A stretch of DNA of 61,089 nt. Source: Actinopolyspora xinjiangensis. Its GTDB lineage: Bacteria; Actinomycetota; Actinomycetes; Mycobacteriales; Pseudonocardiaceae. Positions 36,978 to 60,060 of the stretch are shown in pieces; the stretch's first letter is position 1, and the number at the start of each line of letters is the position of its first letter. Below the pieces are notes generated by a model, which searched no databases, was not told where the DNA came from, and saw nothing but the letters and a program-made list of their open reading frames with translations. The translations under genes and the position numbers were made by a program. Location: positions 1 through 61,089 of the forward strand of contig NZ_FNJR01000020.1 of the NCBI RefSeq assembly GCF_900104475.1, written 5' to 3'.

Positions 36978-38192
36978 TCATTCTTCGGAGTAGGTAACGA
37001 GGAGTTTGCTGTGCCGCTTGTCGATGGATGCTCGCGGGGGGTTGGTGTGGGCTGGGTAGGCGGTCACGGTGGGGCGTGCGTCGCGGGCGGGTGACCAGTG
37101 GTCGATCATCTCGATCAGTCGGTCGGTCAGGGTTTCGGCGGCCGGTCCGTGGCCGATCGCGCCGAGTTCCCAGCGGGAGCCGTTGTCGGTCTGGTGTCGG
37201 TGCTTGGTCACGTAGGCCAGTGATTCGCCCGCCGCGAGTGCTGGGGACCGCATCGGCGCAAGCGGGTCGGCGACCTCGCTGGGCACGTCCGGGTGTACGT
37301 CGAGTCGGCAAGTGCGGTTGTCCTCGGCGGTCATCCGCAGCCAGATCCCGTCGAAGGGTTCGCTACCGCCCATCGTGTGCCCGGACCAGCGTGTGATGCT
37401 CGGAGCATCGAGCACGCCGTGCAGCGTGTTGTGATCGAGTGGTTGGTCGCGGTCCCAGTGCAGACTGATGGTGCCGTCGTCGGTGATCGCGCCGCTCTGT
37501 TCTCCTTCGGTCTCCCCGGTCAGGTTCACAAAGCCGCACAACTCCACCGAGTCCGAGACGAGCGTGCCGTCCTGTTCGGCGAAGGCCACGGCGCGGGTTT
37601 GGCCGCGCCAGCGCAGGGGGAGCACCATGCGTCCGCCGGGGATGAGTTGGTGCCACCAGGCCGGTGGGATGTCCCAGGGGGAGACGGTGGCGATGATCCG
37701 GTCGTAGGGTCCGTGCTCGGCTACCCCGTCGGTGCCGTCCCCGGTGACCACACGCACGTCGCCGTACCCGGCCGCGTTGAGATTTCGTCGGGCCTGCGTG
37801 GTGACGTCGGGGTCCACGTCGATGGTGGTCACGAGTTGCGTGTCGCCGGTGAGGTCGGCGAGCAGGGCGGCGTTGTAGCCGGTTCCGACGCCGATCTCCA
37901 GCACACGATCGCCGGGGCGCACGTCGAGTTGGTCGAGCATCATCGCCACGACGAACGGGGCGCTGGCACAGCTCAGGGAGCTGCCGTCGGCGAACCGGTG
38001 GGTGATCACCGCTTGGAACGGGTGGTACGCGGTGTCCAGGTCGTGTCCGGGCACGAAGTCGTGGCGCGGCATGTCCCGCAGGACCTGCTCCACACGCGAG
38101 TTCGCGGCGAATCCTTTGCTGCGGACTTTCTCGACCATGCGGGCACGCAGTTCCTCGGCTGACGCGGCCTCGGTGGTGATCTCGGTGTTCAT
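36978..38192 (-). CDS. FxLD-system O-methyltransferase 1 (PIMT-like)
   Basis: A 404-residue SAM-dependent methyltransferase of the protein-L-isoaspartate methyltransferase superfamily, closest to the FxLD lanthipeptide type. It has VEQVLRDMPRHDFVPGHD at the front, the SAM motif RVLEIGVGTGYNAALL near 100, TTIDVDPDV and YDRIIATVSPWDIPPAWW. The extra C-terminal domain of about 190 residues is typical of lanthipeptide-associated enzymes. ATG 38192 follows gcaaggaagg. It would methylate an Asp side chain of the peptide, giving a methyl ester, succinimide or isoAsp. It lies at the 3' end of the cluster, next to a LanC remnant. Confidence 0.9.
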   Translation of the reverse strand: MNTEITTEAASAEELRARMVEKVRSKGFAANSRVEQVLRDMPRHDFVPGHDLDTAYHPFQAVITHRFADGSSLSCASAPFVVAMMLDQLDVRPGDRVLEIGVGTGYNAALLADLTGDTQLVTTIDVDPDVTTQARRNLNAAGYGDVRVVTGDGTDGVAEHGPYDRIIATVSPWDIPPAWWHQLIPGGRMVLPLRWRGQTRAVAFAEQDGTLVSDSVELCGFVNLTGETEGEQSGAITDDGTISLHWDRDQPLDHNTLHGVLDAPSITRWSGHTMGGSEPFDGIWLRMTAEDNRTCRLDVHPDVPSEVADPLAPMRSPALAAGESLAYVTKHRHQTDNGSRWELGAIGHGPAAETLTDRLIEMIDHWSPARDARPTVTAYPAHTNPPRASIDKRHSKLLVTYSEE

Positions 38193-38220
38193 CGTGTCCC
38201 TTCCTTGCTTCTTCGTCGTG

Positions 38221-38523
38221 TCAACCATCCAGCAGCAGGCAGGCATCCCACCGCGTGACGGGGGGCTGATCGGTGGTGACGGCGTGCAGCGCCAGCCGGG
38301 CTCCCGTTGCTCCGGTGAGCAGGCCCGCCGCCGGTGAGGAGTGCTCGTCCAGCCGCTCCGTGACTCGGTCGATCAGCCTCGGCAGGTGCGCGCGGAGCCG
38401 CGGGGCGTGCTGGCTCATGCGCCAGGTGGTGTGCAGCAGCCCCGCCCACCCGTGGCAAAGGGAGACGTCTGTGAGCTGGGCGAGCTGCCCGTTGTCGGCC
38501 CTGGTAACGACATCTAGCCGGGT
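38221..38523 (-). pseudogene. Remnant of a second LanC-like cyclase
   Basis: About 100 codons in one minus-strand frame end in VTRWDACLLLDG, closely matching the end of the intact LanC (TGWDTCLLLA). Upstream in the same frame are the zinc-ligand motif LTDVSLCHGWAGLLHTTWRM and SSPAAGLLTGATGARLALHAV, again parallel to LanC. Everything before the CHG motif is missing, including the first zinc Cys, so it cannot be a complete cyclase. Confidence 0.75.
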
Positions 38524-38717
38524 CGGTGGCGGGCGTCGTACGGGGCGGTCGAGGCGAACAACTCGGTGGGGACGTGGAAGACATTCAACAGTTCTCCAGT
38601 CACGGGCACGGCTGTGTAGTCGCTGAGCAGTTCTCGAGACGTGTCCCAGGGCCTGACGAGCGGGAAAGTGACGTCAGCTCCCAGGGTGGATTTTCCACGT
38701 GCTGCCGTTTCACGGTC
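38524..38717 (-). other. Open stretch between the TPR gene and the LanC remnant
   Basis: After the stop of the TPR-like gene the same frame stays open for about 65 codons (TLGADVTFPLVRPWDTSREL, then PVTGELLNVFHVPTELFAST) to a stop at about 38518, without a start codon. It reads like the end of a protein, so it is probably another remnant of the deleted copy of the cluster. Confidence 0.4.
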
Positions 38718-39977
38718 TTAGTAGCGAGGTATCCCTCGCGGCGCTGCCTCTGTCGTGTCTCCCGGTCCGGCCAGGTCATCGCCGAGTTCGCCCGGTGGCT
38801 GTGGGGCAGTCGTGCTGGGGTAGTTCCTTCGGGGCTGGTCGTGAGCTGACTGTGGTCGTGTGAGTGCGTGAGCCAGGCTGGTTTCGCTTGCGGCTATTGC
38901 GTCGGTGAGTTCGGTGAGGGGCTCGGCTGGTGCTTCCTCGCCGTGGTGGAGGCCGGCGGTGGTGATGATGTGGGTTAGCGCGTGCTGGTCAGTGTCGGAC
39001 ATGTTCTGCGCGCAGGCTGGGTGGGTGAGCACGTCGTGGGCGGCGTAGGCGTCTGCTGCGGCGATGGCTTGTCGAGTGATGTCGGTGGTGATTGGTGTGT
39101 GAGGTGTGTGGTTGGTGAGGTCGAGTACGCATAGACCGAGGCGGCAGCGAAACACCGGTGGTGTGGACTGGTGGGGGAGTGCGAGGTAGCGCTCGACCAT
39201 CTCTGTGTCAGCTGGCTGGGTCTCGCGTTCTGCGGTGGTCAGGCACAGCGTGGTGAGGTAGGACGCGACGGCTTGTTCCCACGTTTCCGGGGTGGAGCTG
39301 TGTGCGAGCAGGTCGAGGGCGTGCTCGTGGTCGTCGTTGATGATGCGGGTGAGGATGGCGACTTGTCTGCCGTCGAGCATGCGGTCGCCGATGCCTTTGT
39401 GGCGTTCGAGGTGTTCGAGCGCGTCGTTCCATCGTCCGGCTCGGGTCAGGGCTCGGGTGCCGTCGGCCAGCAGCACTGTCCAGAGGAATCGGGCGAGGTC
39501 GCCTCGTGCTGCGCTGTGATCGTCGGTGAGGTCGGTGAGGTCGATGTTCCGACCGTCGATCGTGGTCGCCGTTCTCGTGCGCAGGGCTTGGTAGGCGTGG
39601 GTGAACAGCTGGTGGGCGCGGTTGGCCTGCCCGGTGCGGATGTGCAGTCGTCCGAGGTTGACGAGGGGTTGCAGGGCGAGTTTGGCCGTTGTCGGTGCCA
39701 GCGGCCGGTGGGCGTGGAAGAGGTCGAATTGTCGCCGGCACAGCTGGTGGGCGCGGTCGGGCAGGCCGCAGTCGCTGAGGATGAGCGCGGCCTTGTTGCA
39801 GGCTTCGGCGGCGGTGGTGATGCGTTGTTCCGGTGGGCCGTGTGCGGCGATGTGGGCGAGGTGGTTGATCTCGTCGACGCGCTCGGTGAGTGCTCGGCAG
39901 GCGGGCCGTGGCCGTGGCAGGAGCGGGAACCACGCGGCGAGTCGTTCGTGGAGGTGGTCGTTGCTCGGGAGGGGCAT
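38718..39977 (-). CDS. TPR-like helical protein of the lanthipeptide cluster
   Basis: A 419-residue helical-repeat protein: ITTAAEACNKAALILSDCGLPDRAHQL, LGRLHIRTGQANRAHQLFTHAYQAL and TRALTRAGRWNDALEHLERH are TPR-like pairs. Such proteins without an HTH occur in actinobacterial lanthipeptide clusters and may be scaffolds or regulators. It starts 13 bases after the SpaB_C gene stop, in the same operon. The C-terminal 60 residues are Pro-rich and probably disordered. Confidence 0.75.
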   Translation of the reverse strand: MPLPSNDHLHERLAAWFPLLPRPRPACRALTERVDEINHLAHIAAHGPPEQRITTAAEACNKAALILSDCGLPDRAHQLCRRQFDLFHAHRPLAPTTAKLALQPLVNLGRLHIRTGQANRAHQLFTHAYQALRTRTATTIDGRNIDLTDLTDDHSAARGDLARFLWTVLLADGTRALTRAGRWNDALEHLERHKGIGDRMLDGRQVAILTRIINDDHEHALDLLAHSSTPETWEQAVASYLTTLCLTTAERETQPADTEMVERYLALPHQSTPPVFRCRLGLCVLDLTNHTPHTPITTDITRQAIAAADAYAAHDVLTHPACAQNMSDTDQHALTHIITTAGLHHGEEAPAEPLTELTDAIAASETSLAHALTRPQSAHDQPRRNYPSTTAPQPPGELGDDLAGPGDTTEAAPRGIPRY

Positions 39978-39990
39978 CGCAAGGGTCCGA

Positions 39991-40824
39991 TCAGTCGAAG
40001 ACGAGCGTGGCCGCGGTGTGGGCGAGCAGGGTCTGGCTTGCGGGGCTGAGACCGAAGCGGTTGAACGCGAACAGGGCGTGGTGGGCCAGCACGGCGCGCA
40101 GGCCGCGCTCGAGGACGCCCTCGTGGGCCAGGCGCGCTAGCTGTGTGCCCGCGTCGTCGAAGGCGGTGAACCAGTCCGCCGCGACGGCGAGGCCGCTGGT
40201 GGGATCGCGTGCCAGCTGCGCGGTGTCGACGGTCATCAGGCGACGTAGTGCGGGGTGCAGCGCGTGCACGGTCTCCGGTGGGAGCTCGTGGATCGGGCGA
40301 CGGTTCTGCGCGATCCGGGCCCAGATGTCTCCCTGCTCGTACCAGTCCTGCCCGGCCGCGCGGAACAGGCGGCTGCACAGCAGCATCGCAAGTTCTTTTC
40401 GCTGCACCCTCCGGGGCGCGGTGTCGAGGTGGTTGAGGTAGGTCAGGATGTGGTGGCTGTCCTGGTGGAACAGGGTGTGGGCCAGCGCCATGCCGGTGGC
40501 CCCGCCGAAGGCGTGGACCTCGGGTTCGTAGATGACCGGGGTGGCCCGGGGAAGGTGCGCGTGGAGGAGGGCGAGCGCCTCGGAGACGGTGTCTTCGTCT
40601 GGTCCCTGGATGCGCACTCGCCAGCACGGGCGCGGAGCTCCCTGCGCGGCGACGCCGTGGCCATCGGGGTGTAGCTGTTCGGCCTTGCGTGTGAAGAACC
40701 AGGCTTCGATCAGCCCGGCGTGGCTGGCTTCGGTGAGGGCGGGCCCGAGGTGGGTCACTGCGGTGTGTTCGACGGTGTCCCAGTCGTCGAATCGAACGTT
40801 GAGTTGGCGCCAGGACGGGGTCAC
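39991..40824 (-). CDS. Thiopeptide-type bacteriocin biosynthesis protein (SpaB_C-like)
   Basis: A 277-residue protein of the stand-alone SpaB C-terminal family: WRQLNVRFDDWDTVEHTAVTHL at the start, EAWFFTRK, CWRVRIQG, VIYEPEVHAFGG and SHHILTYLN are characteristic. In glutamylation-dependent dehydratases this fold removes glutamate from glutamylated Ser/Thr. Here LanB has its own copy at its C-terminus, so this second copy may act on other residues or bind the peptide. GTG 40824 follows acaaggagcc, 20 bases after the LanC stop. Confidence 0.9.
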   Translation of the reverse strand: MTPSWRQLNVRFDDWDTVEHTAVTHLGPALTEASHAGLIEAWFFTRKAEQLHPDGHGVAAQGAPRPCWRVRIQGPDEDTVSEALALLHAHLPRATPVIYEPEVHAFGGATGMALAHTLFHQDSHHILTYLNHLDTAPRRVQRKELAMLLCSRLFRAAGQDWYEQGDIWARIAQNRRPIHELPPETVHALHPALRRLMTVDTAQLARDPTSGLAVAADWFTAFDDAGTQLARLAHEGVLERGLRAVLAHHALFAFNRFGLSPASQTLLAHTAATLVFD

Positions 40825-40843
40825 GCGATGGCTCCTTGTCGGG

Positions 40844-42073
40844 TCAGGCCAGCAGCAGGCAGGTATCCCAGCCGGTGTGCGGTGCCTGGTGGGTGCCGAG
40901 GGTGTGCAGGGCCAGGGCGATGCCGGCGGTTCCGTCGAGGAGTTCGGGATCTGACGGGGGTGGTGACAGCCGTGCGAGGAGCCGTCGGCACAGGTGGGGC
41001 AGTTCGCCGGTGATCTCGCCGGTGTCGGCGTCGGCGGCCATGCGCCAGGCGGTCTGGCCGATTCCGGCCAGCCCGTGGCACAGGCCGGTGTCGGTGACGC
41101 GGTCGAGCTGGTCGGGCTCGCGCAGCAGGCCCAGCATCGCGGCCTCGGCGGTGCGTTGTCGGGCGGTGTCGCCGGTGGCGATCCCGGCGAGTTGCAGTGC
41201 GCGGGCCAGCCCGGCGGTGCCGTAACACCAGCGCGGCGCTTGTCGCTGGGAGGGGGCGATCTGTCCGGTTTCGACGTTGGTGCGGGTGATCACTCCGGGC
41301 CACCAGGGGCCCGGTTGTTGCCAGGTGTCGAGCCAGCTGCAGATCCGTTCGAGCGCGTCGCGCTGGCCGTCGACAGCCACACCGCGCAGCAGGGCCAGGG
41401 ACAACAGCGCCAGTGGTCCGGCGATGCCGTGGGACAGGCCGATATTTCCGTGCCCACCGGGGAAATCGGCGGTGATCTCTCCGTTGGGCGAGACCTCGGT
41501 CCACCATCCTGGTAGGCCGTCCGAGGTGGACGGCAGGGGTTCGGTCAGCCGGACGAGGTAGTTCAGCACGGCGCGGGTGATGGCGTGCCGGCGGTGGTGG
41601 CGCAGGTGGTAGGCGCCGAGTCCGGCCAGGCCCCGGAAGAGGTCGAACTCGGACAGCAGGGGGAGCTCGCCCCGATCGAGACGCGCGTGGGCCAGGGTGA
41701 GACGGGCCCGGGTCAGTGCGATGGTTTTGCTGTCCAGTGCGGCCAGCACGGGGGGACACCGGTGGGGCTCGTCGGCGACCGAGCGGGTGAGAAACCCCAG
41801 CGCCGGTGCCCCGTAGAACAGGGTCGCGTTGCGGCCGGTGGAGACTTCCTCGCGTGCGGCCGCGGTCAGCCAGGCGCGGGCGGTGTCCCAGCTGCCGCGG
41901 CCGCTGCGGGCACGTTCGAGGTGCAGCAGCGCGAGGCCGGCCGCGCCGCCGAGCAGCGACTGCGGCCGGGTGCGGCCCACGCCGCCGTGCGGGTAGAGCG
42001 TGTGCGGGTCGGAAAGAGGCTCGGCGAGCTCGTCGACCGCGGCGAGGATGTCGACGGTGTTGAGGGTGTTCAC
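40844..42073 (-). CDS. lanC: Lanthionine synthetase C-family cyclase
   Basis: A 409-residue LanC. The zinc ligands are present: Cys in RWCYGTAGL near 282, and Cys-His in GLCHGLAGIG near 331. The repeated G-x-x-G helical hairpins (SLLGGAAGLALLHL, GLAGLGAYHL, GIAGPLALLSLALL, LDGTAGIALALH) give the alpha/alpha barrel. It would join Cys thiols to dehydrated Ser/Thr in the FxLD peptide. Its GTG overlaps the LanB stop (gtga), so the two are made together. The C-terminal WDTCLLLA is also seen in the remnant at 38221. Confidence 0.95.
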   Translation of the reverse strand: MNTLNTVDILAAVDELAEPLSDPHTLYPHGGVGRTRPQSLLGGAAGLALLHLERARSGRGSWDTARAWLTAAAREEVSTGRNATLFYGAPALGFLTRSVADEPHRCPPVLAALDSKTIALTRARLTLAHARLDRGELPLLSEFDLFRGLAGLGAYHLRHHRRHAITRAVLNYLVRLTEPLPSTSDGLPGWWTEVSPNGEITADFPGGHGNIGLSHGIAGPLALLSLALLRGVAVDGQRDALERICSWLDTWQQPGPWWPGVITRTNVETGQIAPSQRQAPRWCYGTAGLARALQLAGIATGDTARQRTAEAAMLGLLREPDQLDRVTDTGLCHGLAGIGQTAWRMAADADTGEITGELPHLCRRLLARLSPPPSDPELLDGTAGIALALHTLGTHQAPHTGWDTCLLLA

Positions 42074-45000
42074 GGGGCTCCCTGGGTGCGGGCGGTCCAG
42101 CTCAGAGCGGCGGCGCGGGCCAGGCGCAGGCACGTCCGCTCGGTCTCGGGAGCCACGCCGGTCATGCGCACGTGGTGCAGGTGCAGCAGGTCGGTCAGCA
42201 CGCCGGCGGGTTCGCGGTGCCCGGACTCGGTCAGGGTGCTGCGGTAGGCGGTCAGCGCTGTCCGACGCCGGTGCCAGGCGGCCGCGAGGTCCTCGCCGCC
42301 CGGCAGGGCGCGTACCGCGGCCCAGTCCTCGCGTGGCTCGGCCAGCCGCAGTGCCTGTTCACGCAGAGCTCGCTCGGGGGCCGGGCCCGAGGGGGTGTGG
42401 GCGTGCTCGATCAGCCACCGCATTCCGGTGGCCGGATCGTCGTGGAACGAGCACACGAGCTGGACCATGCTCGCCGCGGTCAGAGCCAGCGGCCGAGCAC
42501 CGTCGTGGTGCTCGATAGCGTGCAGCTGGGCGAGCACCGCGCTCGAATCGGCGGCGAAGACCGACTCGGCGGCCCGCATCGCCGTTCCGGCGCCGAACCG
42601 GCCGGTTTCGGGATAGTAGGTGTCGACCTGGGCGCGGCCTACGAGCCCCCGCTGGCGCAGCTGGGCGAGCCAGGCGTTGACCCTGGCCAGAACAGGGGCG
42701 CTCTCGTCGTGCTGGCCGACCCGGATCCGCAGCCGCAGGTGCGGATCCGGGTCGGCATAGCGCACGAACCACCACTCCGGCGCGGTGTCCCAGCTCGACA
42801 GCAGCTCGGGCAGATGATTCGTGAGCACCGTGTTCTGCCGGTGGGGATGCCCGTAGAGCTTGAGGTAGAGCCAGGACTCGCTGCCGGGCAGGTGCCCGTG
42901 CCCGCGGTCGAGGTGCTGGGCCGACCACCTCGGCGGCGAAGCGGCCGTGGCGGTGGTCGCCAGCGGGATCACCACCTCGTGGGCGTGCCCGTCGAACCAG
43001 CCGAACTCCTCGTCGGCCGGTGCTTCCCGCAGGGTGACTTCTCCCGTGCGTTCCAGCTCGGTGCGCAGCAGGGACACGTGCGCCGGAGTGTGCAGATGCA
43101 GCCGCATCCGCTGATCGCTGTCACCGAGAGAGACCAGATCCGGCACGGCGAAGTGCTGCCGCCACGCTTGAAAGCCCTGCATCCAGTCCTGCCACGAGGC
43201 CCCGGAACCGGGAAGCTCGCTTGCTTCCAACCGCCACCGCGCTGGTGCCAGGATCGTGCGACGGTAGCGCACTCGGGGCAGAAACGGCAGCCGAGCCGCC
43301 GCTGCCCACGAGAACGGCACGCACGGCCTGGCACGGGCGGTGCTGAGCTCGGTGACGAACCGCACGAGCGGATGCGCGTGGCCGACCATCTCCACCGCGT
43401 TGAAACCCACCGGTTCGACCGGACGCTGCTGCGACAGCGACAGCAGCACCAGCCGTTCGGCGTCGGCGGTGACGGCGAGATCGTCCAACGGCACCACATC
43501 GTGACCCGACTCGCGGTGTTCGCCCAGCGAGACCACCGCGGGCAGCACCTGTCGACTGCGAGCGACGTTGTCGGTGCGCGCATACAGCGCCGGCGCCGAG
43601 ATCTGGGCCGGGCGCGCGTTCGCACACACTGTGGGCAGTTCGGCATAGGCCGCGACCGCACGCTGCTGGTCCTCGTCGTCGAGCAGGTCGACAAAGCGGC
43701 CGGTGGTAGCTCCGGCCGAGCGTGAGACCCCGGCCAGAGCCAGCTCGAACTCGCCGCGATCAAGGGCGTCCCGCGTCCGGGCCCGCACCTGCACGCGCAG
43801 CTCGGTATGCGGCTGGACCGTCGTCTCCCTCGTCCCCGCGGTCTCGAGACGACTGATCGTGGCCTCGTCGAGCACGATTTCGGTACGGCCTTCCCAGACC
43901 GCTCGCTGGGCCAGGGCCAGCAACTCCGCATCCCGCTCCGAGACCGGACCGGATTCCGGTGTGCCCCACGGGCAGTCGCGGTAACCGGCCGGGAAACCGA
44001 GTCCGGTATCGGCCACCAGCTCGGCCACCGGCACGACCGCTCGTGGCCCGTACCGTTCCAGGAACCGACCGTGGTACTGCCGCCACGCCGGGGTGCCGAA
44101 CGGCTCCGAAGCCAGCCGCACCAACGCCGCGGCCGCGGCTTCGGCCTCCCGGGCCACCCCCTGCGGCAGGGTCAGGTCACAGTCCAACCGCAGATCCACC
44201 CCGACCGGCCGCTGGCTCGGCGCCAGCCGGGTCATCGCCCGCGAGAGCCCGGCACGGCGCTGGTCTGCTCGGGTCGGTGCGCCAACGGCGTTGTGCCCCA
44301 CCATGTCCTGGTGGAGGGCACGGAGCTGGGCCACCCGCCCCGACACCCCGGCCATCGTGTCGGCCTCGATCTCGTCCAGCGCCGCCACGACATGGGCCAG
44401 GGGATCGGTGGCCGTCATGGGAGCCCGCACCTGAGTGATCAGGAACCCCTGCTCAACCAGCGCCCCCAGCATCGGCTCCACTGCGGCGGCGGAGGCGTTG
44501 ACCTCAGCCGCGACCTTCTCGGCCGCCTCGCACACCCGGATCGGCGCGGCCACGGCCCGCATGATGGCCCGCACCACCCGGCTGTGGCGCACCGAGACCT
44601 CTCCCAGCCAGCCGTCCTCGGAACGGCGCTGCCAGCCCAGCACCATCCTGCCGTCACGGACCACAGCGGCCGAGTTCGCCACAACCAGCAGCCGGGCACG
44701 CAGCTGCGGATCAGACTCCAGATCCGCCAGTACCGCCGACAACCACTCCGCATCGACCCGCGCCACCGCCCGAGGCCGGTGGCCCCAGCGCACCGTCGTG
44801 GCACGGTCGAACCGGGCAGCGGCAACGCCCGCGAACAACCCGAACGGGGTCGCCCGAGTGGTGGCACGCAGCAGATACCGCATCATCGAACTCGTCACAC
44901 GACGAACCTCACGGGCACGCAGCTCCTCGCCCGCGCAGATCGCACGCACACGATCGGCCAGCACCGGGCTGGCCACCTCCACGGCCGCCGCGAACTCCTC

Positions 45001-45195
45001 AACCGCCCACACCCGCCGTAACCACGAACACCACTGCCGCACGTGCGCATCCGTACTTCCGGTCAGATCCGGCCACGATCCACCATCCACCCCGCTGGGG
45101 AGCAGGGTCGCCCGGATCATGGCGGTGTCGAGCAACCGATACACCTGGGCCCCTAACGACAGGAAAAGCGTGATGCCGGGCGACAGCGCGAACAC
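42070..45195 (-). CDS. lanB: Class I lanthipeptide dehydratase (LanB)
   Basis: A 1041-residue full-length LanB. Residues 1-700 form the glutamylation domain (RVTSSMMRYLLRATTRATPFGLFAGVA and ARPCVPFSWAAAARLPFLPRVRYRR are hallmark blocks); residues 780-1040 are the SpaB_C elimination domain (SWLYLKLYGHPHRQ, WWFVRYADPDPHLRLRIRVG, VDTYYPETGRFG). It would use glutamyl-tRNA to dehydrate Ser/Thr of the peptide encoded just upstream (45-base gap). GTG 45195 gives MFALSPGITLFLSLGAQVYR; a later Met (IRATLLPS) is possible. All catalytic regions appear complete. Confidence 0.95.
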   Translation of the reverse strand: MFALSPGITLFLSLGAQVYRLLDTAMIRATLLPSGVDGGSWPDLTGSTDAHVRQWCSWLRRVWAVEEFAAAVEVASPVLADRVRAICAGEELRAREVRRVTSSMMRYLLRATTRATPFGLFAGVAAARFDRATTVRWGHRPRAVARVDAEWLSAVLADLESDPQLRARLLVVANSAAVVRDGRMVLGWQRRSEDGWLGEVSVRHSRVVRAIMRAVAAPIRVCEAAEKVAAEVNASAAAVEPMLGALVEQGFLITQVRAPMTATDPLAHVVAALDEIEADTMAGVSGRVAQLRALHQDMVGHNAVGAPTRADQRRAGLSRAMTRLAPSQRPVGVDLRLDCDLTLPQGVAREAEAAAAALVRLASEPFGTPAWRQYHGRFLERYGPRAVVPVAELVADTGLGFPAGYRDCPWGTPESGPVSERDAELLALAQRAVWEGRTEIVLDEATISRLETAGTRETTVQPHTELRVQVRARTRDALDRGEFELALAGVSRSAGATTGRFVDLLDDEDQQRAVAAYAELPTVCANARPAQISAPALYARTDNVARSRQVLPAVVSLGEHRESGHDVVPLDDLAVTADAERLVLLSLSQQRPVEPVGFNAVEMVGHAHPLVRFVTELSTARARPCVPFSWAAAARLPFLPRVRYRRTILAPARWRLEASELPGSGASWQDWMQGFQAWRQHFAVPDLVSLGDSDQRMRLHLHTPAHVSLLRTELERTGEVTLREAPADEEFGWFDGHAHEVVIPLATTATAASPPRWSAQHLDRGHGHLPGSESWLYLKLYGHPHRQNTVLTNHLPELLSSWDTAPEWWFVRYADPDPHLRLRIRVGQHDESAPVLARVNAWLAQLRQRGLVGRAQVDTYYPETGRFGAGTAMRAAESVFAADSSAVLAQLHAIEHHDGARPLALTAASMVQLVCSFHDDPATGMRWLIEHAHTPSGPAPERALREQALRLAEPREDWAAVRALPGGEDLAAAWHRRRTALTAYRSTLTESGHREPAGVLTDLLHLHHVRMTGVAPETERTCLRLARAAALSWTARTQGAP

Positions 45196-45239
45196 TGCCG
45201 CCCGGCTTCCTGATTCACATCAGGACTGCAACGAACTAC

Positions 45240-45437
45240 TTACTCCGGGCAGGAATTGCAGGCCGATTCACAGGTGTGCCCACAGCCGTCATCAGTGGGA
45301 CGCATGAGTTCCTCGACGACCGGCCCCGACTCGACAAAACGAATGTCGAGATCGAAGTCGTCGGGAAGGAGGGGCTGCTCGCCAGCGAAATCTCCCACCT
45401 CGTCCACTGTGCTGGTGGTGTTGTCCGGAACTGCCAC
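45240..45437 (-). CDS. FxLD-family lanthipeptide precursor
   Basis: A 65-residue precursor peptide. GTG 45437 follows gaaggagattcct. The leader contains the family motif F-D-L-D (residues 28-31) in an acidic context. The C-terminal core from about residue 48 (TDDGCGHTCESACNSCPE) has four Cys (52, 56, 60, 63) and four Ser/Thr (48, 55, 58, 62), enough for up to four (methyl)lanthionine rings. The Asp-Gly at 50-51 is the natural target of the adjacent PIMT-like methyltransferases. No exporter or leader protease is encoded in the window. Confidence 0.93.
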   Translation of the reverse strand: MAVPDNTTSTVDEVGDFAGEQPLLPDDFDLDIRFVESGPVVEELMRPTDDGCGHTCESACNSCPE

Positions 45438-45486
45438 AGGAATCTCCTTCGTTTCTCAATCACCGTGATGCCGCGGGCCCTGCCTG

Positions 45487-46722
45487 TCAGGGATTCCGCG
45501 CTCCTGGCCAGGAGACGGCGACGCGCGTGTGCGCTTTCTCGACGATGCGTCCCCTGGGGAGTTCACTGGTCGGCCGCGTAGCGGGAAACACCTCGATACG
45601 CGCGCCGGGACCGCCCCGCAGATCGCGGTCCCATCGGCGCAGCAGCTCGACGTACTCGTCGGCCACCGCGTCCGCCTCGGGGCCGTGGGCATAGACCCCG
45701 GTCTCGAATTCGTCGGTGCCCTCGATCGGACGTTTCGTGCGGTAGGCGAAACCGCTGCCCCGGAGCAACGTCGGAACCCCGCGCAACGCGGCACGTGTGA
45801 CGAGCCCGCGTTCGACCGCGTCTTGCCGTGCCACGAGCAACCCGAACACCGGGGCTTGCGTGGCGATCCAGAAATCCAACTCGTCGACCTGGTCGAACCG
45901 CACACCGGACCAGTGCTGCACCCACTGCCCGTACAACGCCTGCCGCAGGCCACTCACGTCGAGCAGCTGCTCTTCCTCGGCCCGCAGCGCCACCTCGGAC
46001 CCGTCGAGCGGGATCAGACGTTCCTCGCGGGCGCTGACACCCTGCATCGGGACGAACCCGCACAGGCGATATCCCGTGCTGACCAGGTGATCCCCGTCGT
46101 GGGCGAAGACCACCGACCGAGTCAGCCCCCGCATCCGCAGTGGGACCACGATCCGCCCACCCGGCGCGAGCTGCTCGATCCAGGCCGGGGGGATGTCCCA
46201 CGCGCCGGCCGTGACGATGATCCGGTCGTACGGAGCCTCCGGCGCATGTCCGTGCTCGGCATCCCCGTGCACCACCCTGACCGGCTCGTAGCCGGCAGTC
46301 TGCAGGCAGCTGCGGGCACGTTCGACGATGTCGCCATCGATGTCGAGCGAGACGACCGTGCCGGCCTCGCCCACGAGTTCGGCGAGCAGGGCGGCGTTGT
46401 AGCCACCGCTTCCGACCTCCAGAACCCGCATTCCCGGCTGGAGTTGAGCCTGCTCCAGCATCGTGACCTGGATGTGGGTGGCCGACAGCGAGCTGGTGGC
46501 CAGTCCCTGCTCGTCCCGCTTGGTCACCACAGCCTGGTTCGCCGCATACACGTCCTCCAGCGACTCACCCGGTGCGAACAGATGCCGCGGCACCGTTCGC
46601 AGCGCTTCCGCGACCGAATCACTACGCAGGTCGCCCCACTCGCGCAGTTCGGAGATCATCGTTTCCCGCCGTGTGCTCGCCTCGTCGGCAGCACCGCTAC
46701 CGGTCTCACATGCCCTTGTCAC
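45487..46722 (-). CDS. FxLD-system O-methyltransferase 2 (PIMT-like)
   Basis: A 411-residue homologue of methyltransferase 1, directly before the precursor gene. GTG 46722 with aggaaggtg upstream is chosen; the frame extends to 46974 but without a ribosome site. It has LRTVPRHLFAPGESLEDVYA, the SAM motif VLEVGSGGYNAALLAELVG near 100 (one residue shorter than in enzyme 1), SLDIDGDIVERAR and YDRIIVTAGAWDIPPAWI, then the lanthipeptide-type C-terminal domain. Being next to the precursor, it is the more likely primary modifier. Confidence 0.92.
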   Translation of the reverse strand: MTRACETGSGAADEASTRRETMISELREWGDLRSDSVAEALRTVPRHLFAPGESLEDVYAANQAVVTKRDEQGLATSSLSATHIQVTMLEQAQLQPGMRVLEVGSGGYNAALLAELVGEAGTVVSLDIDGDIVERARSCLQTAGYEPVRVVHGDAEHGHAPEAPYDRIIVTAGAWDIPPAWIEQLAPGGRIVVPLRMRGLTRSVVFAHDGDHLVSTGYRLCGFVPMQGVSAREERLIPLDGSEVALRAEEEQLLDVSGLRQALYGQWVQHWSGVRFDQVDELDFWIATQAPVFGLLVARQDAVERGLVTRAALRGVPTLLRGSGFAYRTKRPIEGTDEFETGVYAHGPEADAVADEYVELLRRWDRDLRGGPGARIEVFPATRPTSELPRGRIVEKAHTRVAVSWPGARNP

Positions 46723-49823: not shown

Positions 49824-49841
49824 CTGCAGTGCCCGATGAGT

Positions 49842-51339
49842 CTAGTTGCCCCGCGCGAGCGGGGAAACCATGGAGAACCAGGACTGGGCGGTCGAGCTGA
49901 CCGGCTCACCCCCGCGCGAGCGGGGAAACCGGCCATGTCGTACCAGCGCACGTAGGCGGCCCAGGCTCACCCCCGCGCGAGCGGGGAAACCGTCGACGGC
50001 GAACTTCTCCAGGTCCACCGGGCGGGCTCACCCCCGCGCGAGCGGGGAAACCGCAGCACGCTCCGCCCGGCGGCCCTGCCGCGTCGGCTCACCCCCGCGC
50101 GAGCGGGGAAACCAGCTGCCCGTGCATCGTGTAGTACGGCCCGCCGGGCTCACCCCCGCGCGAGCGGGGAAACCCAGCGCCTCGGCGGGAACGTCCACGC
50201 CGGTCTCGGCTCACCCCCGCGCGAGCGGGGAAACCTCGTGCTGCTCGTCCGTCTCGACCTCGTCGCCCGGCTCACCCCCGCGCGAGCGGGGAAACCCCGC
50301 GCGTTCACCGTCTACGAGGCCGCCGGGTGGGCTCACCCCCGCGCGAGCGGGGAAACCTGCTGGACAGGTTGCCCACTTGAAAACTCCAACGGCTCACCCC
50401 CGCGCGAGCGGGGAAACCATCACAACTGGCTGGGCACCCAGCTACGTGGCCGGCTCACCCCCGCGCGAGCGGGGAAACCGTCGCAGCGCCCCGGCGGGCA
50501 CGTCCACGCCGGGGCTCACCCCCGCGCGAGCGGGGAAACCTCAGCCCTGGACTCGTCCGCATCGTCACCGGCGAGGCTCACCCCCGCGCGAGCGGGGAAA
50601 CCCTCCAACGCGATCGTGTCGACGTGGGGCCAGGACGGCTCACCCCCGCGCGAGCGGGGAAACCGTTGTCGTAGTGCGCGGCGGCGGACGACTCCTGGGC
50701 TCACCCCCGCGCGAGCGGGGAAACCTGGTGGCTGGTGGGGCGGTCATTCGGGGTGGCCGGCTCACCCCCGCGCGAGCGGGGAAACCACGTTCATCGTTTT
50801 CTGTGCGTACTGGGCGGCTGGCTCACCCCCGCGCGAGCGGGGAAACCTGGGGGCACGGGCCGCCGCCGAGGATGTCGTAGGGCTCACCCCCGCGCGAGCG
50901 GGGAAACCTTCTGGAAATTCGAGTTGACCAGCTTTTCCAACGGCTCACCCCCGCGCGAGCGGGGAAACCACACCCCCGGCCGTCTCCCGACGCGGGGGGT
51001 GTGGCTCACCCCCGCGCGAGCGGGGAAACCTCGGTGCCCCACGTGGCCACGTGCCCGTACACCCTGGCTCACCCCCGCGCGAGCGGGGAAACCGACGGTC
51101 ACTTGATCACGGAAACTGGAATCAGTGGCTCACCCCCGCGCGAGCGGGGAAACCGTGGTGCTTGTCGTAGTGGCTGGTGGCGGTCAGGGCTCACCCCCGC
51201 GCGAGCGGGGAAACCCTCCTTCGGTCACTCGGTGGTCATCTGTGCTTCGGCTCACCCCCGCGCGAGCGGGGAAACCTCGGTGCCCCACGTGGCCACGTGC
51301 CCGTACACCCTGGCTCACCCCCGCGCGAGCGGGGAAACC
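49842..51339 (-). CRISPR. Type I-E CRISPR array 1 (25 repeats, 24 spacers)
   Basis: Twenty-four near-perfect 28-nt repeats (plus-strand reading ggctcacccccgcgcg then agcggggaaacc) plus one degenerate repeat at the left end (49842-49869, starting ctagttgcc). Spacers are mostly 33 nt, with two of 34 and two of 35. The degenerate end marks the trailer, so the array is read leftwards from the cas2 side, where the repeat starts ggtttccccgc. The 35-nt spacers at 51031-51065 and 51277-51311 are identical. Spacers at 50175-50207 and 50480-50512 overlap with a 4-nt offset. Confidence 0.98.
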
Positions 51340-51368
51340 CCTTTTTGTGCTGGGAAAACAGTTGTGCT
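51340..51368 (-). promoter_or_regulatory. CRISPR array 1 leader (very short, running into cas2)
   Basis: Only 29 bases separate the last repeat from the cas2 stop codon. They are AT-rich (runs of ttttt and aaaa) as in leaders. Because type I-E leaders are usually longer, the integration signals or promoter probably extend into the 3' end of cas2, or the array is co-transcribed with the cas operon. Confidence 0.55.
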
Positions 51369-51704
51369 TTACCGTTTTGTGATCTCAGCTTCGGGATCGC
51401 TGTCAGGAGTCAGTGTCCAGGACACGAGCGAGAGGCCGTCGAGATCGACGATCGTTCGGCCTCTGGTGCCGGGGCCGTGGGTGTGGATGTCGTAGCCTTG
51501 TTCGTTGTCGGCGTTGCAGATGAGTGCGGCCCAGCCTTCCTGGTCGTCGATGCTCTCGCAGACGGCTTCCCACAGGTATTCCCGGACACGGTTGGTCAGC
51601 GTGCCGACGTAGACTCCTGGAGCAGGTTCGAGCATCCAGCGGGTCAGGGCTCCGCGAGTGCCGTCCGCGACGGCGCTGGTGGTGATAACGGCGAAGGTGC
51701 TCAT
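51369..51704 (-). CDS. cas2: CRISPR-associated endonuclease Cas2, type I-E
   Basis: A 111-residue Cas2e: TRGALTRWMLEPAPGVYVGTLTNRVREYLWEAV is the family hallmark, followed by GWAALICNADNEQGYDIHTHG. It forms the Cas1-Cas2 integrase core for spacer acquisition. Its ATG overlaps the Cas1 stop. It is the last gene of the cas operon, directly before array 1. Confidence 0.96.
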   Translation of the reverse strand: MSTFAVITTSAVADGTRGALTRWMLEPAPGVYVGTLTNRVREYLWEAVCESIDDQEGWAALICNADNEQGYDIHTHGPGTRGRTIVDLDGLSLVSWTLTPDSDPEAEITKR

Positions 51705-52684
51705 CAGAATTCCGGGTCATCGTTGTTTTCGTCCAGGCTGGCGTAGTTGACCCCGGCGGGCACGTTGGTGTCTGGATCCCACAGGTCGACCACTCCGGTG
51801 GGAGTGTCTTTCGGGGGTGCGGTGCCGCCGTTGAGGACGTAGCGGATGTCGCGGATCATACGGGGAACGAGTTTGAGTAGTCGGGCGTTTTCACGTAGCC
51901 GGTAGCGCATTTCCCGGTCGGGATGTGTGCTTTGGGCGAGGGCAAAAGCGATCGGAACGGTGAGTTCCGCTTTGTACAGATCAGCGATGTCGTAAGTGAA
52001 GGCGCGTTGGTTGTGCTCGTGTATAACGCCCAAGGCGGGCGAGGCTCCGAGACTGAGCAGTACGGCGGTGCATATTCCGTAGAGTGCGCTGTTGCCTGCG
52101 GTGATTGCCTGGTTGACCGGATCGCTGGCGCTGAAGTCGTTGGGATCGTAGGAGCGGCGGAACGGCCCCACCCGATGCTTTTTCGCCAGCGCTTTGTAGG
52201 TGGCCTTCATTCTGGCTCCCTCCAGACTTCTCAACCGAGCTACGGTCGCGTCATCTGGAGGTGATTCCCCGAAACGGAGTTGGAAGTGCCGGTGCGCCGC
52301 TGTGATGCGCTGGTCGTCATTGGCCAGTAGCTGGACTTGTTGGTGCAGCAGTTCGGTGGAGGTGCTTTCGTGCAGGAAGGCTGAATAGCAGCGCACTCCA
52401 CCGGAGCCGACCCAGCCGAGTACGGTCCCGTCTCTGGTCAAGGCGGTGGCGGCGGCATGGGTGACGCTGGTGCCTGGACCGAGCAGGACGCAGGCCAGGC
52501 TGGCGGTCGGTAAGTAGACGCGGTCGATCGTGCCGGTATCGGGGTGTTCGGTCTGTGCGCACACACCGTTGCGGTCGGCCACGACTCGAACGCTGTCCAC
52601 GTAGAGATAGGTGATGCGGTCTTTGACTGGGTGCAGCCCGAGCACGCTGGGTGTGCCGAGTGCTTTGGGAAGTCGTTGGTTCAC
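51704..52684 (-). CDS. cas1: CRISPR-associated endonuclease Cas1, type I-E
   Basis: A 326-residue Cas1e integrase. The metal-binding residues are visible: Glu in LRSLEGARMKATYKALAKKH, His in ALGVIHEHNQRAFTYDIADLYK and the following Asp. ITYLYVDSVRVVADRNGV at the front forms the beta domain. It starts within the last bases of cas6e (atga overlap). Confidence 0.97.
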   Translation of the reverse strand: MNQRLPKALGTPSVLGLHPVKDRITYLYVDSVRVVADRNGVCAQTEHPDTGTIDRVYLPTASLACVLLGPGTSVTHAAATALTRDGTVLGWVGSGGVRCYSAFLHESTSTELLHQQVQLLANDDQRITAAHRHFQLRFGESPPDDATVARLRSLEGARMKATYKALAKKHRVGPFRRSYDPNDFSASDPVNQAITAGNSALYGICTAVLLSLGASPALGVIHEHNQRAFTYDIADLYKAELTVPIAFALAQSTHPDREMRYRLRENARLLKLVPRMIRDIRYVLNGGTAPPKDTPTGVVDLWDPDTNVPAGVNYASLDENNDDPEF

Positions 52685-53346
52685 TGGTCACCCTCCGCCA
52701 TGGGGACGAGGGACAGCATTCCGCAGCCGTAGGATTTCGCACGTCCGATCCCTTCCAGGACAGCGCGGAAGGTTGTCTCGGGGTGGGTGACCGTGGCGGT
52801 GCCGTCGAACTGGGCGGCCCCGTGGTAGTGGGTGCGCCGTGCACGCCGCGGTTTGTCCCCCACCAGTTGGTACTCGCGGGTGAGCATGGCTGACTCGAGG
52901 TCGAGTCCTGCTTCCTCGGCGCGACGATGCCACCAGGACAGGGCATGATCCCCGGACAACTGGCGCCGGTGTTTTCTGCCGTCGTCGGTGGTTTCGACGC
53001 GGGTGGGGTTGGCGACGATCCGGTAGCGTACCCGCGTCCCGGGTTTCAGAGCGCTGAGCAGGGGGTCGAGCTCGCGGTGTGCGGCGTTGGCGTAGCCGTG
53101 TGGGAGCCGTGTGATGTCGGGGGTGAGGGTGGATTGGATGAGCACCACCGCTGCTGCGTGACTGTGTTCCACGCGGTGGAGGACACCGGCTTCGGAGCGG
53201 GGGTTGTCCCCGAGGGAGTCGGGGAACAGGGACATGACACGGCGGTGCATCCCGTCTACATTGGCTAATTCCCGACCGGTGGCTGGGTGACGCGGATTTA
53301 GCCTGAGCTGAGTCAGCATCGCGGTGCGTGGTGCGGTTGTGGTCAT
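52681..53346 (-). CDS. cas6e: CRISPR RNA endonuclease Cas6e (Cse3/CasE)
   Basis: A 221-residue Cas6e with two ferredoxin-like halves. The N-terminal LTQLRLNPRHPATGRELANVDGMHRRVM holds the likely catalytic His near 33; the C-terminal glycine-rich loop GIGRAKSYGCGMLSLVP binds the repeat hairpin. It would cut both arrays, whose repeats share the stem but differ in the loop. It overlaps cas5 and cas1 by four bases each. Confidence 0.96.
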   Translation of the reverse strand: MTTTAPRTAMLTQLRLNPRHPATGRELANVDGMHRRVMSLFPDSLGDNPRSEAGVLHRVEHSHAAAVVLIQSTLTPDITRLPHGYANAAHRELDPLLSALKPGTRVRYRIVANPTRVETTDDGRKHRRQLSGDHALSWWHRRAEEAGLDLESAMLTREYQLVGDKPRRARRTHYHGAAQFDGTATVTHPETTFRAVLEGIGRAKSYGCGMLSLVPMAEGDQ

Positions 53347-54095
53347 GCGGCTTCCTCCAAGGCCGTGGAGAGGGCATCGAGGTAGTCGGTGCCGTACCCG
53401 CCGCACAGGCCGGCGGGGAGGACGCGCCGGTATCGGTAGGCGGGGCGGCTGCGGTAGCTGCGGTGGTCGGGGGTGAAGTCCCGTGGATCGTCGGCGACGT
53501 TGTCGGTCCAGCCGGTGGGCTCGTCCGGAGGGTGCTCGGCGACGAATTCCACGGTCACCGACTCCTCGTATGGAGTGGGGCGGGCCAGCGGGAGGCGCTG
53601 GTGCAGCCAGATGTGGGGATCGTCCACTGCGGTGATCAGGAACGGAGTGTCCGGAGGGCATGCTCGGCGTCCGAGATACCCGGCCCAGTAGGGACGGCGC
53701 AGCGCCTGCTCGGTCTCGGTGAGCATCGTGCCGTCCGAGCTGGTCACCGCCACGGTGAACACAGCGTCGGACAAGTGGTGCCGGTTGGAGACCAGCGTGC
53801 CCGTGCCCTCTTGCCGGTAACCGCCTTTGGCGGTCGGGACGGTCTGCTTCGGGGGCCGTCCCCCACCGACGGTGTGGAAGTCGACGAGATGGGTGCCGGG
53901 CCGGTCGATACGCACCAGAAACCGCAGTGGGGAAAAACGGTCGGGGTCCATGGTGCGGGAATGTCCTCCGGCGGCGGCGATGAGGCCGATCAGCCCGGAC
54001 CGGGTCGGGTAGGGATGTGTGTCCCGCTCGGTCCAAGTCGAGTGGGTGCCCCACGACTGCAGGGGGCCGCCCAGACGGAGTAGGAGCCCTGTCAT
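53343..54095 (-). CDS. cas5: Cascade subunit Cas5e (CasD)
   Basis: A 250-residue Cas5e: LLLRLGGPLQSWGTHSTWTERDTHPYPTRSGLIGLIAAAGG is the family signature, and LRFLVRIDRPGTHLVDFHTVGGG follows. It binds the 5' handle of the crRNA in Cascade. It overlaps cas7 and cas6e by four bases each. Confidence 0.96.
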   Translation of the reverse strand: MTGLLLRLGGPLQSWGTHSTWTERDTHPYPTRSGLIGLIAAAGGHSRTMDPDRFSPLRFLVRIDRPGTHLVDFHTVGGGRPPKQTVPTAKGGYRQEGTGTLVSNRHHLSDAVFTVAVTSSDGTMLTETEQALRRPYWAGYLGRRACPPDTPFLITAVDDPHIWLHQRLPLARPTPYEESVTVEFVAEHPPDEPTGWTDNVADDPRDFTPDHRSYRSRPAYRYRRVLPAGLCGGYGTDYLDALSTALEEAA

Positions 54096-55285
54096 GCCGC
54101 ATCCCCCGCTCGGTTCGTGCTGTCGGTGATCAGGTCGTGCAGGCTGTCGTAGCCTTCGCCGAGTTGCTCGTAGGGCTCGGCGGCGATCGAGGCGTGGCCG
54201 TGCCAGAGCAGTCCGTCGGTGCCGAGGAAGCGGTGGAGCCTGCCGGTGTAGTTGGCGAGTTGCTCCCGCGACGGTTCCGCGTAGCCGCTTCCGCTGTGAC
54301 TACGCACGGGCTTTTCGAACGCTCCTGCCAGCGACAGCGGATCGTGCCGCAGCGCCAGGTACACCAGCTCGGGACGGGTGGTGGCTCCGGTGGTGCGTTG
54401 TTTTCCGCTGGGGACGGCTTCACAGAAGGCGCGCAGGTAGGCGTCGACCACTCGTAGGGCGTCGTCGAAGCCGTCCTGCGTCTTGTCCGTGCCGCTGAGG
54501 TTGGTGGCGAGGTCGGTGAGGTTGACGCTGCTGTAGCGATAGAACACACCGCTGGTGAACTCGGCCGTGGCCAAATGTCCGGAGCCTGTCGCATCCGGAG
54601 GATTGAGGTCGTCGACGGCGGTGAAGAAGTCGAAGTCCATCGCTGATTCGTGCGTGGTGAACGCGTGGGCGAACAGGCTCGCCCCGTCAACGCGGTGGCC
54701 AGGGATCTCGGCCAGCATCCGGCCGAGCAGGTTGATCGACGGGGAACGGCGACGCAGGATGTCCTCCACGGTTGCCACCGGCAGCACCGGCTGCGGCTTG
54801 TCCTGTTTCTTCGGACGTTCCTTCTTGGTGACTTCCTGCTTCGACGGCAACGGCATGTCCGCGATGGCATCGGGGTACTGCTCGGCCAGATCGGCGAGGT
54901 CCGTGATCACAGCTCGAGGGACCCAGAACAGTACATCGGACTGGTCGTCATCCGGTGTGGGGAACAACCCGCCTTCCTTGCTGTCTTTGCGGGTGGCTGC
55001 CTGATCGGCGCTGATGAGTACAGCACGTCCGGCCCTGCGTGCCGTGTCGTGATCCCAACCGCGGTGTTCCAGCTCCTTTCGCACGGCTTCGGGGATTCGG
55101 CGGGTGCGGACCGTAGGTTCGTCGAGTTGCTGCTCGAGTTCGAAACGGACGGCGCGTTTCCAGGACTGGCTGGACACGCGTGTGCGCGTCGATCCACCGT
55201 AGACACAACTTTTCGGGCTGCCCAGCGCGTCGCGGTTCAAATTCGAGTAGGGGACAGGCTGCAAGGCGTGAATGTCCAAGTGCAT
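54092..55285 (-). CDS. cas7: Cascade backbone Cas7e (Cse4/CasC)
   Basis: A 397-residue Cas7e: MHLDIHALQPVPYSNLNRDALGSPKSCVYGG and TRVSSQSWKRAVR are typical, as is IDLFARMLAE-like LLGRMLAEIPGHRVDGASLFAHAFTTHE. Six copies normally line the crRNA. It starts 72 bases after cse2 with its own ribosome site (ggaaag). Confidence 0.96.
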   Translation of the reverse strand: MHLDIHALQPVPYSNLNRDALGSPKSCVYGGSTRTRVSSQSWKRAVRFELEQQLDEPTVRTRRIPEAVRKELEHRGWDHDTARRAGRAVLISADQAATRKDSKEGGLFPTPDDDQSDVLFWVPRAVITDLADLAEQYPDAIADMPLPSKQEVTKKERPKKQDKPQPVLPVATVEDILRRRSPSINLLGRMLAEIPGHRVDGASLFAHAFTTHESAMDFDFFTAVDDLNPPDATGSGHLATAEFTSGVFYRYSSVNLTDLATNLSGTDKTQDGFDDALRVVDAYLRAFCEAVPSGKQRTTGATTRPELVYLALRHDPLSLAGAFEKPVRSHSGSGYAEPSREQLANYTGRLHRFLGTDGLLWHGHASIAAEPYEQLGEGYDSLHDLITDSTNRAGDAA

Positions 55286-55357
55286 GTTCTTTCCTTTCGG
55301 AAATCTTTGTCTGTTTCTTTGACCGATATCGGGGAGGAGTGAGGGAGGTAACGGAGC

Positions 55358-55894
55358 TTAGGAGGAGGAAGTCTTGGAAGCGACGGAGCGGTAGTAGCTT
55401 TGCAGCCAGGTCTTGGCGATCCGGCGAGACTGCCAGGGCCAGCGGCCGGCATCGTCGAACAGCCGCGCGAAATCGACCGGTATCCCGGTGTCGCGCAACG
55501 AGAGCACGACGGTGGTGAGGTAGCGGCAGAGCGTACCGGGGTTTTGACGGACCACCAGATGCAGGTAGTTCTCCGTAGTGGCGGAGGCGAGGACGTGGTG
55601 CTGGGCGGCGCGGGCCAGGGACTCGCCGAGATCGCCGGATGCGTCTTCGTCGGTGGGGACTGCGGTTTCGGGGGCGTGTGCGATGAGTGCGGCGATCGTG
55701 TAGTGGACGCGTTCCTTGTCGGGGTGGGAGTCTTCCTCCAGCCACGGGGCGACGAAGGCGTGCATGCGGTGGCACTGGTCGGGTTCGCGTCCGAGCCCGG
55801 TGCGTAGTGCGGTGCGTACGGCCGGGTTCGCAGTGGCCTGGGTGGCGATGTCGGTGACGAATCGGGTCGCGTAGTCGCTGGCTGCACGGGCCAT
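55358..55894 (-). CDS. cse2: Cascade small subunit Cse2 (CasB)
   Basis: A 178-residue Cse2: a helical protein with the conserved VHYTIAALIAHAPE, ARAAQHHVLASATTENYLHLVVRQ-like region and the FARLFDDAGRWPWQSRRIAKTWLQSYYR ending. It stabilises the target strands on Cascade. ATG 55894 lies 13 bases after the cse1 stop. Confidence 0.95.
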   Translation of the reverse strand: MARAASDYATRFVTDIATQATANPAVRTALRTGLGREPDQCHRMHAFVAPWLEEDSHPDKERVHYTIAALIAHAPETAVPTDEDASGDLGESLARAAQHHVLASATTENYLHLVVRQNPGTLCRYLTTVVLSLRDTGIPVDFARLFDDAGRWPWQSRRIAKTWLQSYYRSVASKTSSS

Positions 55895-55907
55895 GGGTGG
55901 TTTCCTC

Positions 55908-60034
<4,127 letters not shown>

Positions 60035-60060
60035 TGAACCCCAGGTTTCTTGTAAAACAA

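Follow-up and report, generated by a model that had tools for sequence, protein, structure and literature searches.

Why should a single short lanthipeptide precursor be accompanied by two different methyltransferases of the protein L-isoaspartate O-methyltransferase (PIMT) type? The question is raised by a 61,089-nucleotide stretch of Actinopolyspora xinjiangensis DNA (contig NZ_FNJR01000020.1, which is contig 33 of a 5.04-Mb genome, hereafter the window), which holds a complete-looking class I lanthipeptide cluster of the FxLD family, encoded on the minus strand in the transcription order methyltransferase MT2, precursor, LanB, LanC, a separate SpaB_C protein, a TPR-like protein, a LanC remnant and methyltransferase MT1 (Table 1). 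The family to which MT2, at the 5′ end of the cluster, and MT1, at its 3′ end, belong is also called LanSA. A first-pass annotation had offered three explanations for the pair: double modification, two target aspartates, or an enzyme left over from a second cluster. The reading we favour, at a probability of roughly 0.64, is that a cluster of one type (type A) replaced nearly all of the LanB gene and three quarters of the LanC gene of a resident cluster of another type (type B) in an ancestor of at least three Actinopolyspora genomes, leaving MT1 and the LanC stub behind.

The evidence comes from comparing the window with related loci (L-numbers) and with ten genomes of the genus, G000 (the window's own) to G009, among which G001 is A. 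alba, G002 A. biskrensis and G007 A. mortivallis. FxLD methyltransferases above the family cut-off occur in seven of the ten, the window's own included, and five (G000, G001, G002, G003 and G009) hold two at one locus. Type A, MT2-precursor-LanB-LanC-SpaB_C-TPR, stands alone with its single methyltransferase in L045 within the genus, and also in other genera. Type B, precursor-LanB-LanC-MT1, is alone and intact in L043, and alone also in L061-L063 and others, whilst type C, in L041 and L042, consists of methyltransferase-precursor-LanB-LanC-SpaB_C followed by MT1. In two loci, L039 and L040, a whole type A cluster stands between the type B precursor on one side and the 3′ end of LanC with MT1 on the other. 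Alignment of L039 with L043 (oriented coordinates) gave 95.6% nucleotide identity across the left flank including the old precursor (122-4842/544-5257), and again 95.6% across the LanC 3′ end, MT1 and the right flank (13360-17457/8971-13069), with 8.5 kb of type A sequence between these flanks in L039 where L043 has 3.7 kb of LanB and LanC; the type B LanB is lost except for about its first 17 codons, and LanC has lost about three quarters of its length. The right junction is identical to the base in the window, L039 and L040, so that one replacement event common to all three is the simplest reading. Because the junctions in these relatives show LanB and LanC replaced, MT1 and the LanC stub of the window are best read as the tail of a different FxLD cluster, and the second enzyme is explained by the 80-codon LanC remnant which stands before it. 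Of the three options for the pair, it is the leftover from a second cluster that the junctions and the stub bear out. The remnant lacks any N-terminal part and is 86% identical to the intact LanC of L043, compared with 45% to the C-terminal end of the window's own LanC. Against L039, L040 and L043 its ratio of nonsynonymous to synonymous change (dN/dS; all selection figures are Nei-Gojobori counts) is 1.2-2.1, with few changes and no difference from neutral, and the stub appears to evolve like a non-coding relic.

The history of the window did not end with the fusion. Per 100-base bin, identity to L039, L040 and L043 is 90-98% across the LanC remnant but 60-93% across the MT1 frame, which is 93-100% identical to L050 instead, with the profile breaking at the start of MT1: recombination has swapped the MT1 allele but not the remnant next to it. 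The proposed sequence of events in the window would include this exchange as well as the disappearance of the old precursor. An old precursor hidden elsewhere in the window's genome was considered and rejected: type B precursors score 49-54 bits with the family model, and a family search and a direct search of that genome found only the window precursor and two core-less relics. The first relic, on contig 16, has an intact methyltransferase (51% identical to MT2) and, behind it, a coreless precursor leader; the second, on contig 25 (L021:10900-11480), is a relic of a second type A cluster, with a C-terminal methyltransferase piece 88% identical to MT2 and a leader which runs to RPTDD before the core is lost. 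Intact orphan FxLD methyltransferases with no precursor core or LanB nearby are found in the contig 16 locus (L020:10161-11580), L046 and L048.

Could MT1 and MT2 simply be recent duplicates inside one cluster? They share a family as well as a cluster: both exceed the cut-off of 320 for TIGR04364 (methyltransferase, FxLD system; Table 1), both consist of a PIMT domain and a C-terminal domain in profile searches and models, and both are full length in intact frames, with confidently predicted folds (AlphaFold mean pLDDT 89.4 for MT1 and 90.0 for MT2). The MT1 model, the one searched, has as its best solved fold the Thermotoga maritima PIMT 1dl5 (TM 0.5 by query length), which excerpts of PMC10787088 give as the only solved enzyme of the clade with that C-terminal domain. 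Family score and domains therefore class both as LanSA enzymes, with Asp methylation the predicted activity. However, the two share 38% identity, they fall in separate branches of a 109-row tree (SH-aLRT 99 for the 3′ group), their S-adenosylmethionine (SAM) motif I differs, being VLEVGSG-GYNAAL and one residue shorter than canonical in MT2 and canonical, VLEIGVGTGYNAAL, in MT1, and the donor cluster is visible at the nucleotide level. Recent duplication was rejected on these grounds, and we give it next to no credence. The first-pass annotation had called for a phylogeny that might group the two as recent duplicates, one lacking SAM-binding residues; they sit in separate old branches, and both have SAM motifs.

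These branches follow gene position. A first sample comprised 79 named loci (the best 80 of 125 relatives, ranked by likeness to an alignment headed by MT1) together with the genus and family loci, giving 109 methyltransferase genes, 60 of them 5′ of LanB/LanC, 33 of them 3′ and 16 unplaced. Motif I is one residue short in 59 of the 60 5′ genes and in none of the 33 3′ genes (one 3′ row scored short solely through a gap beyond motif I), whilst 11 unplaced genes have the deletion and five do not. The sole 5′ exception, L081, groups with the 3′ branch, which has an SH-aLRT of 99 and contains the 33 3′ genes, five unplaced genes and this one 5′ gene (quick search with midpoint rooting). Forty loci, picked among the family matches listed and with six genes unplaced, formed a second sample and gave the same division: with loci shared with the first sample removed (three 5′ genes and one unplaced gene), the deletion is present in 15/15 5′ genes and 0/18 3′ genes, three of the latter being identical. 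Over both samples, shared loci removed, this amounts to 74/75 against 0/51. From these sequences, sampled by similarity and placed with a quick tree in the first case and drawn from among the matches listed in the second, MT1 and MT2 fall into two old LanSA branches that go with gene position, and position together with a one-residue change in the SAM loop divides the family into two testable branches.

Two described clusters help to place MT1. The olv cluster of Streptomyces olivaceus (OlvA, OlvB, OlvC, OlvSA), which makes a class I lanthipeptide with isoaspartate (isoAsp), resembles the window in its LanB, LanC and PIMT-like methyltransferase with a C-terminal domain, and by cluster type MT1 is the olv-like enzyme that comes last (the olv gene order being taken from gene names); unlike the window, olv as described has one methyltransferase and no extra lyase, and MT2, which precedes the precursor, comes from the other branch. 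The coi cluster of Streptomyces coelicolor (CoiA1, CoiB, CoiC, CoiSA) shares with the window the methyltransferase family and an extra glutamyl lyase beside a full LanB, but there the lyase is fused to the methyltransferase, whereas the window has a free-standing lyase and two unfused methyltransferases. Open frames of about 700 amino acids, fused lyase-methyltransferases in appearance, fall in the 3′ group among the family matches listed, which suggests that CoiSA is of the 3′ branch. By cluster architecture (for OlvSA, cluster type and gene names) both OlvSA and CoiSA appear to be 3′ enzymes, which would leave the 5′ branch, that of MT2, biochemically unexplored.

If the two enzymes are old and distinct, each might have its own substrate residue. 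The precursor (above the TIGR04363 cut-off of 30) has the features first claimed for it, an FDLD leader motif (residues 28-31) and a core with Cys52/56/60/63, Thr48/55, Ser58/62 and Asp49-Asp50-Gly51, and it is the adjacency of Asp49 and Asp50 that speaks for two targets. However, the described core motif is TxDGC (excerpts of PMC10787088), and in our motif survey the conserved Asp of TxD[G/N]C corresponds to Asp50 and the variable x to Asp49. This x is Asp in 29 of 54 precursors from one-methyltransferase loci versus 9 of 22 from two-methyltransferase loci (p = 0.45; the latter group includes L052, L053 and L111, where the second methyltransferase is on the other strand, and two motif-less precursor-like frames were dropped). 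PIMTs of lanthipeptides, lasso peptides, graspetides and cysimiditides, moreover, recognise a single core Asp (excerpts of PMC13001092). The proposal of two target aspartates thus fell on the equal frequency of Asp at x, we regard separate modification of Asp49 and Asp50 as very improbable, and Asp50 is likely the single target. A 95% identical precursor occurs in the one-methyltransferase cluster L045 of the same genus, whose genome, G007, keeps an intact MT1 at L044.

What the remaining genes would do can be projected from characterised relatives. Extra SpaB_C proteins beside a full LanB have been reported (excerpts of PMC7268733) and read as syn-lyases, which have Lys in place of Tyr, a hydrophobic residue in place of Arg826 and the substrate Arg pair kept (excerpts of PMC9486935). 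The SpaB_C protein of the window has Lys47 where LanB has Tyr (RK versus RY), Ala where LanB has the Arg826-like residue (HAFGG versus GRFGA) and both substrate Arg (R69/R71, invariant in the alignment), and is a predicted syn-glutamyl lyase. LanB, this lyase and LanC would build the thioether rings, after which MT2 would methylate Asp50 of TDDGC to yield an aspartimide that hydrolyses mostly to isoAsp, as OlvSA acts on the conserved Asp once the rings have formed, and the aspartimide that results from this methylation gives 70-80% isoAsp (excerpts of PMC13001092). The product may have up to four thioether rings, possibly including allo-methyllanthionine, in addition to aspartimide or isoAsp at Asp50. 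As type A clusters with one methyltransferase exist, for example L126 and L045 (G007 keeps MT1 elsewhere), MT2 alone should be sufficient, and MT1 would most likely be unneeded, or, if active, would duplicate the work of MT2 as a second LanSA, with Asp50 again (or isoAsp at that position) as its substrate. MT1 is most likely a redundant survivor of the replaced cluster.

A division of labour at this one residue would give the pair a purpose: MT2 and MT1 might act on Asp50 in succession, for example Asp methylation followed by re-methylation of isoAsp, keeping the aspartimide. Such a system would account for the intact and constrained MT1 of the window and for mixed 5′+3′ pairs, which occur in unrelated taxa at 9 of the 79 loci (L058, L060, L077, L083, L096, L102, L108, L113 and L117; L083 is the same locus as L055 and its second gene was typed from a piece). 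Yet OlvSA also accepts isoAsp and methylates both forms by itself (excerpts of PMC13001092), which requires no second enzyme, most loci examined hold one methyltransferase, including L045 with its 95% identical precursor (again with MT1 elsewhere in G007), MT1-type second copies often decay, and recurrence of the pair comes partly from the default positions of the branches at the 5′ and 3′ ends. We consider successive action unlikely.

Counting genes over 150 bits on one strand, in a sample which leans to MT1-like loci, two methyltransferases are present in 12 of 79 loci: besides the nine mixed pairs, L112 and L127 are 5′ pairs and L065 is a 3′ pair, whilst L111 has its second methyltransferase on the opposite strand. 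Another fusion seems to have occurred at L113, where a second SpaB_C and a fragment of LanC are also present. Eight of the 40 loci in the second sample have a coi-like cluster followed by an additional MT1-like gene, so that both of their methyltransferases are 3′-branch enzymes; the second copies of L166 and L169 are intact and those of L157-L162 truncated or frameshifted. MT1 is the best match of the second gene at 15 loci (window, L039-L042, L055, L077, L157-L162, L166 and L169); there, eight second copies are broken and none of their partners (p = 0.002), or 6 of 13 if the identical L160-L162 are counted once (p = 0.015). In G003 the match to MT1 stops at residue 354 in L042, and L050 has an interrupted copy, both of which favour the view of MT1 as a relic. 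Similarly, between L039 and L040 the dN/dS of MT1 is 0.60 and between L039 and L043 0.49, not distinguishable from neutral, compared with 0.16 for the constrained MT2 between L039 and L040 (MT1 versus MT2, p = 0.044). The second MT1-like genes of L158 and L160-L162 share one end point (...LVAPLRFPVKSAC, about residue 195) in two species groups, so that the truncation seems old or shared. A Streptomyces nigrescens cluster (L117:11155-11900) combines three FxLD precursor-like frames with two methyltransferases of different branches.

Several observations weigh against MT1 being a mere survivor of cluster replacement. The window copy is intact with its SAM motifs kept, and its dN/dS is below neutral against both L041 (0.33, p = 6e-7) and L042 (0.42, p = 1e-3), although this constraint may be partly older than the fusion or come from the donor of the allele. 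Being intact and constrained, MT1 may yet have a function. MT1 is intact beside a frameshifted LanC in G007 (L044), with no LanB and no precursor in the 20 kb around it, and is intact as the last gene of a third cluster type in G001. The 3′-branch second copies of L096, L102, L108, L113 and L117, which match another query better, are all whole, so that 8 of 20 3′-branch second copies overall are broken and 12 full length (p = 0.003), and all six genes of the tandem pairs L065, L112 and L127 are whole (these were excluded from the decay counts, neither gene being clearly the added one). Mixed pairs in unrelated taxa are less well explained by chance fusions alone. Finally, orphan methyltransferases of another cluster, of the contig 16 type, look constrained after its loss, with 18 synonymous differences over 315 sites and 13 nonsynonymous over 921 between G004 and G009 (p = 1e-4); the two orphans share one deletion that took most of the precursor, and no LanB was found nearby.

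These orphans also lend something to the idea that MT1 acts in trans on a different substrate, for example the precursor that went with its lost cluster, or some other product, as does the retention of the old precursor beside the new cluster in L039 and L040; but the window's genome shows no old-type precursor by family and direct search and one LanB only, and we rate action in trans as quite improbable. A bolder conjecture, doubtful and slightly less so than action in trans, is that FxLD clusters draw on two LanSA enzymes which split anciently and differ in their SAM pockets (a shortened GxGxG loop in the 5′ branch, a canonical one in the 3′ branch). Mixed clusters would run the pair as a cycle, in which one enzyme makes aspartimide from Asp and the other restores it from isoAsp, and LanSA genes would be traded as independent accessory parts and selected even without a LanB of their own.

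The survival of MT1 after replacement of the genes before it bears on how such clusters evolve. Among the accessory enzymes encoded in class I lanthipeptide clusters, PIMT-type methyltransferases are the most frequent (excerpts of PMC13001092). The class I families I 1-4 of Walker et al. 2020 resemble the window in combining actinobacterial precursors with a conserved Asp, a PF01135 methyltransferase and an additional elimination-domain protein, but in the excerpts of that paper (PMC7268733) there is no mention of two such methyltransferases per cluster. The closest counterparts are the type A clusters of Saccharomonospora iraqiensis (L126) and A. mortivallis (L109/L045), which have the window's gene order MT-precursor-LanB-LanC-SpaB_C-TPR with parts 66-95% identical and which, unlike the window, lack a 3′-terminal MT1 in the stretch compared. 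The parts are known; in the literature searched we found neither two PIMT-type methyltransferases in one lanthipeptide cluster, nor the chimeric two-LanSA form, the motif-position rule, a captured replacement, or any description of the fate of PIMT-type methyltransferases on cluster recombination. The junctions described here catch a cluster replacement, of which the methyltransferase is the surviving part.

Table 1. Genes and gene remnants of the FxLD lanthipeptide locus, with positions in the window
Feature	Position	Strand	Basis
MT2, FxLD-system PIMT-like O-methyltransferase (LanSA), 5′ branch	45487..46722	-	TIGR04364 569 bits, PF01135, tree, motif, AlphaFold
FxLD lanthipeptide precursor, leader FDLD, core ...RPTDDGCGHTCESACNSCPE	45240..45437	-	TIGR04363 72.8 bits, motif survey
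LanB, full-length class I dehydratase (glutamylation and canonical elimination domain)	42070..45195	-	Lant_dehydr_N, Lant_dehydr_C, PF04738 693 bits, PF14028
LanC cyclase, LANC_like	40844..42133, likely start near 42079	-	PF05147 110.9 bits
Separate SpaB_C protein, predicted syn-glutamyl lyase	39991..40824	-	TIGR03891 162.8 bits, PF14028, residue alignment
419-aa TPR-like protein	38718..39977	-	Weak TPR matches below cut-off; synteny
LanC C-terminal remnant, 80 codons	38224..38463	-	86% to intact LanC of L043; shared junction
MT1, second FxLD-system O-methyltransferase (LanSA), 3′ branch	36978..38192	-	TIGR04364 406 bits, tree, motif, AlphaFold

The cluster at 36978-46722 that had been annotated from the letters alone, with precursor, LanB, LanC, separate SpaB_C and two methyltransferases, is confirmed by the family scores, though as a complete gene list it had overlooked the TPR protein and the LanC remnant before MT1. 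Membership in the FxLD class I family rests on the precursor score and on the full LanB and LanC that adjoin the precursor, and the cluster is no chance assembly, because each of the six genes (MT2, precursor, LanB, LanC, SpaB_C and MT1) passes at least one curated cut-off and the gene order recurs in dozens of the actinobacterial loci examined. The window LanB is the sole Lant_dehydr_N match found in its genome, and the TPR-like protein recurs at the same place in type A clusters. Alignment of LanC to its relatives opens at residue 1 when counted from 42079, and the best start for MT1 is ATG 38192, with a ribosome-binding-like sequence just upstream by eye (38246 is an alternative). A search for sigma-70-like promoters found none, and terminator-like sites were seen only on the opposite strand. 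Between the TPR gene and the LanC stub lies a 54-residue open stretch (38517-38678, minus strand), which is conserved in L039 and L040. Beside the lanthipeptide locus, the window carries a Type I-E CRISPR array with cas genes (together at 49839-51340 and 51704-60112; matches to Cas1e, Cas6e, Cas7e, Cas8e and Cas3e); the array has a 61-bp spacing, 21 copies listed in its main repeat family and one spacer present twice (51003 and 51249), and matching 61-bp repeats also stand beside the FxLD clusters of L039, L040, L041, L043 and L044.

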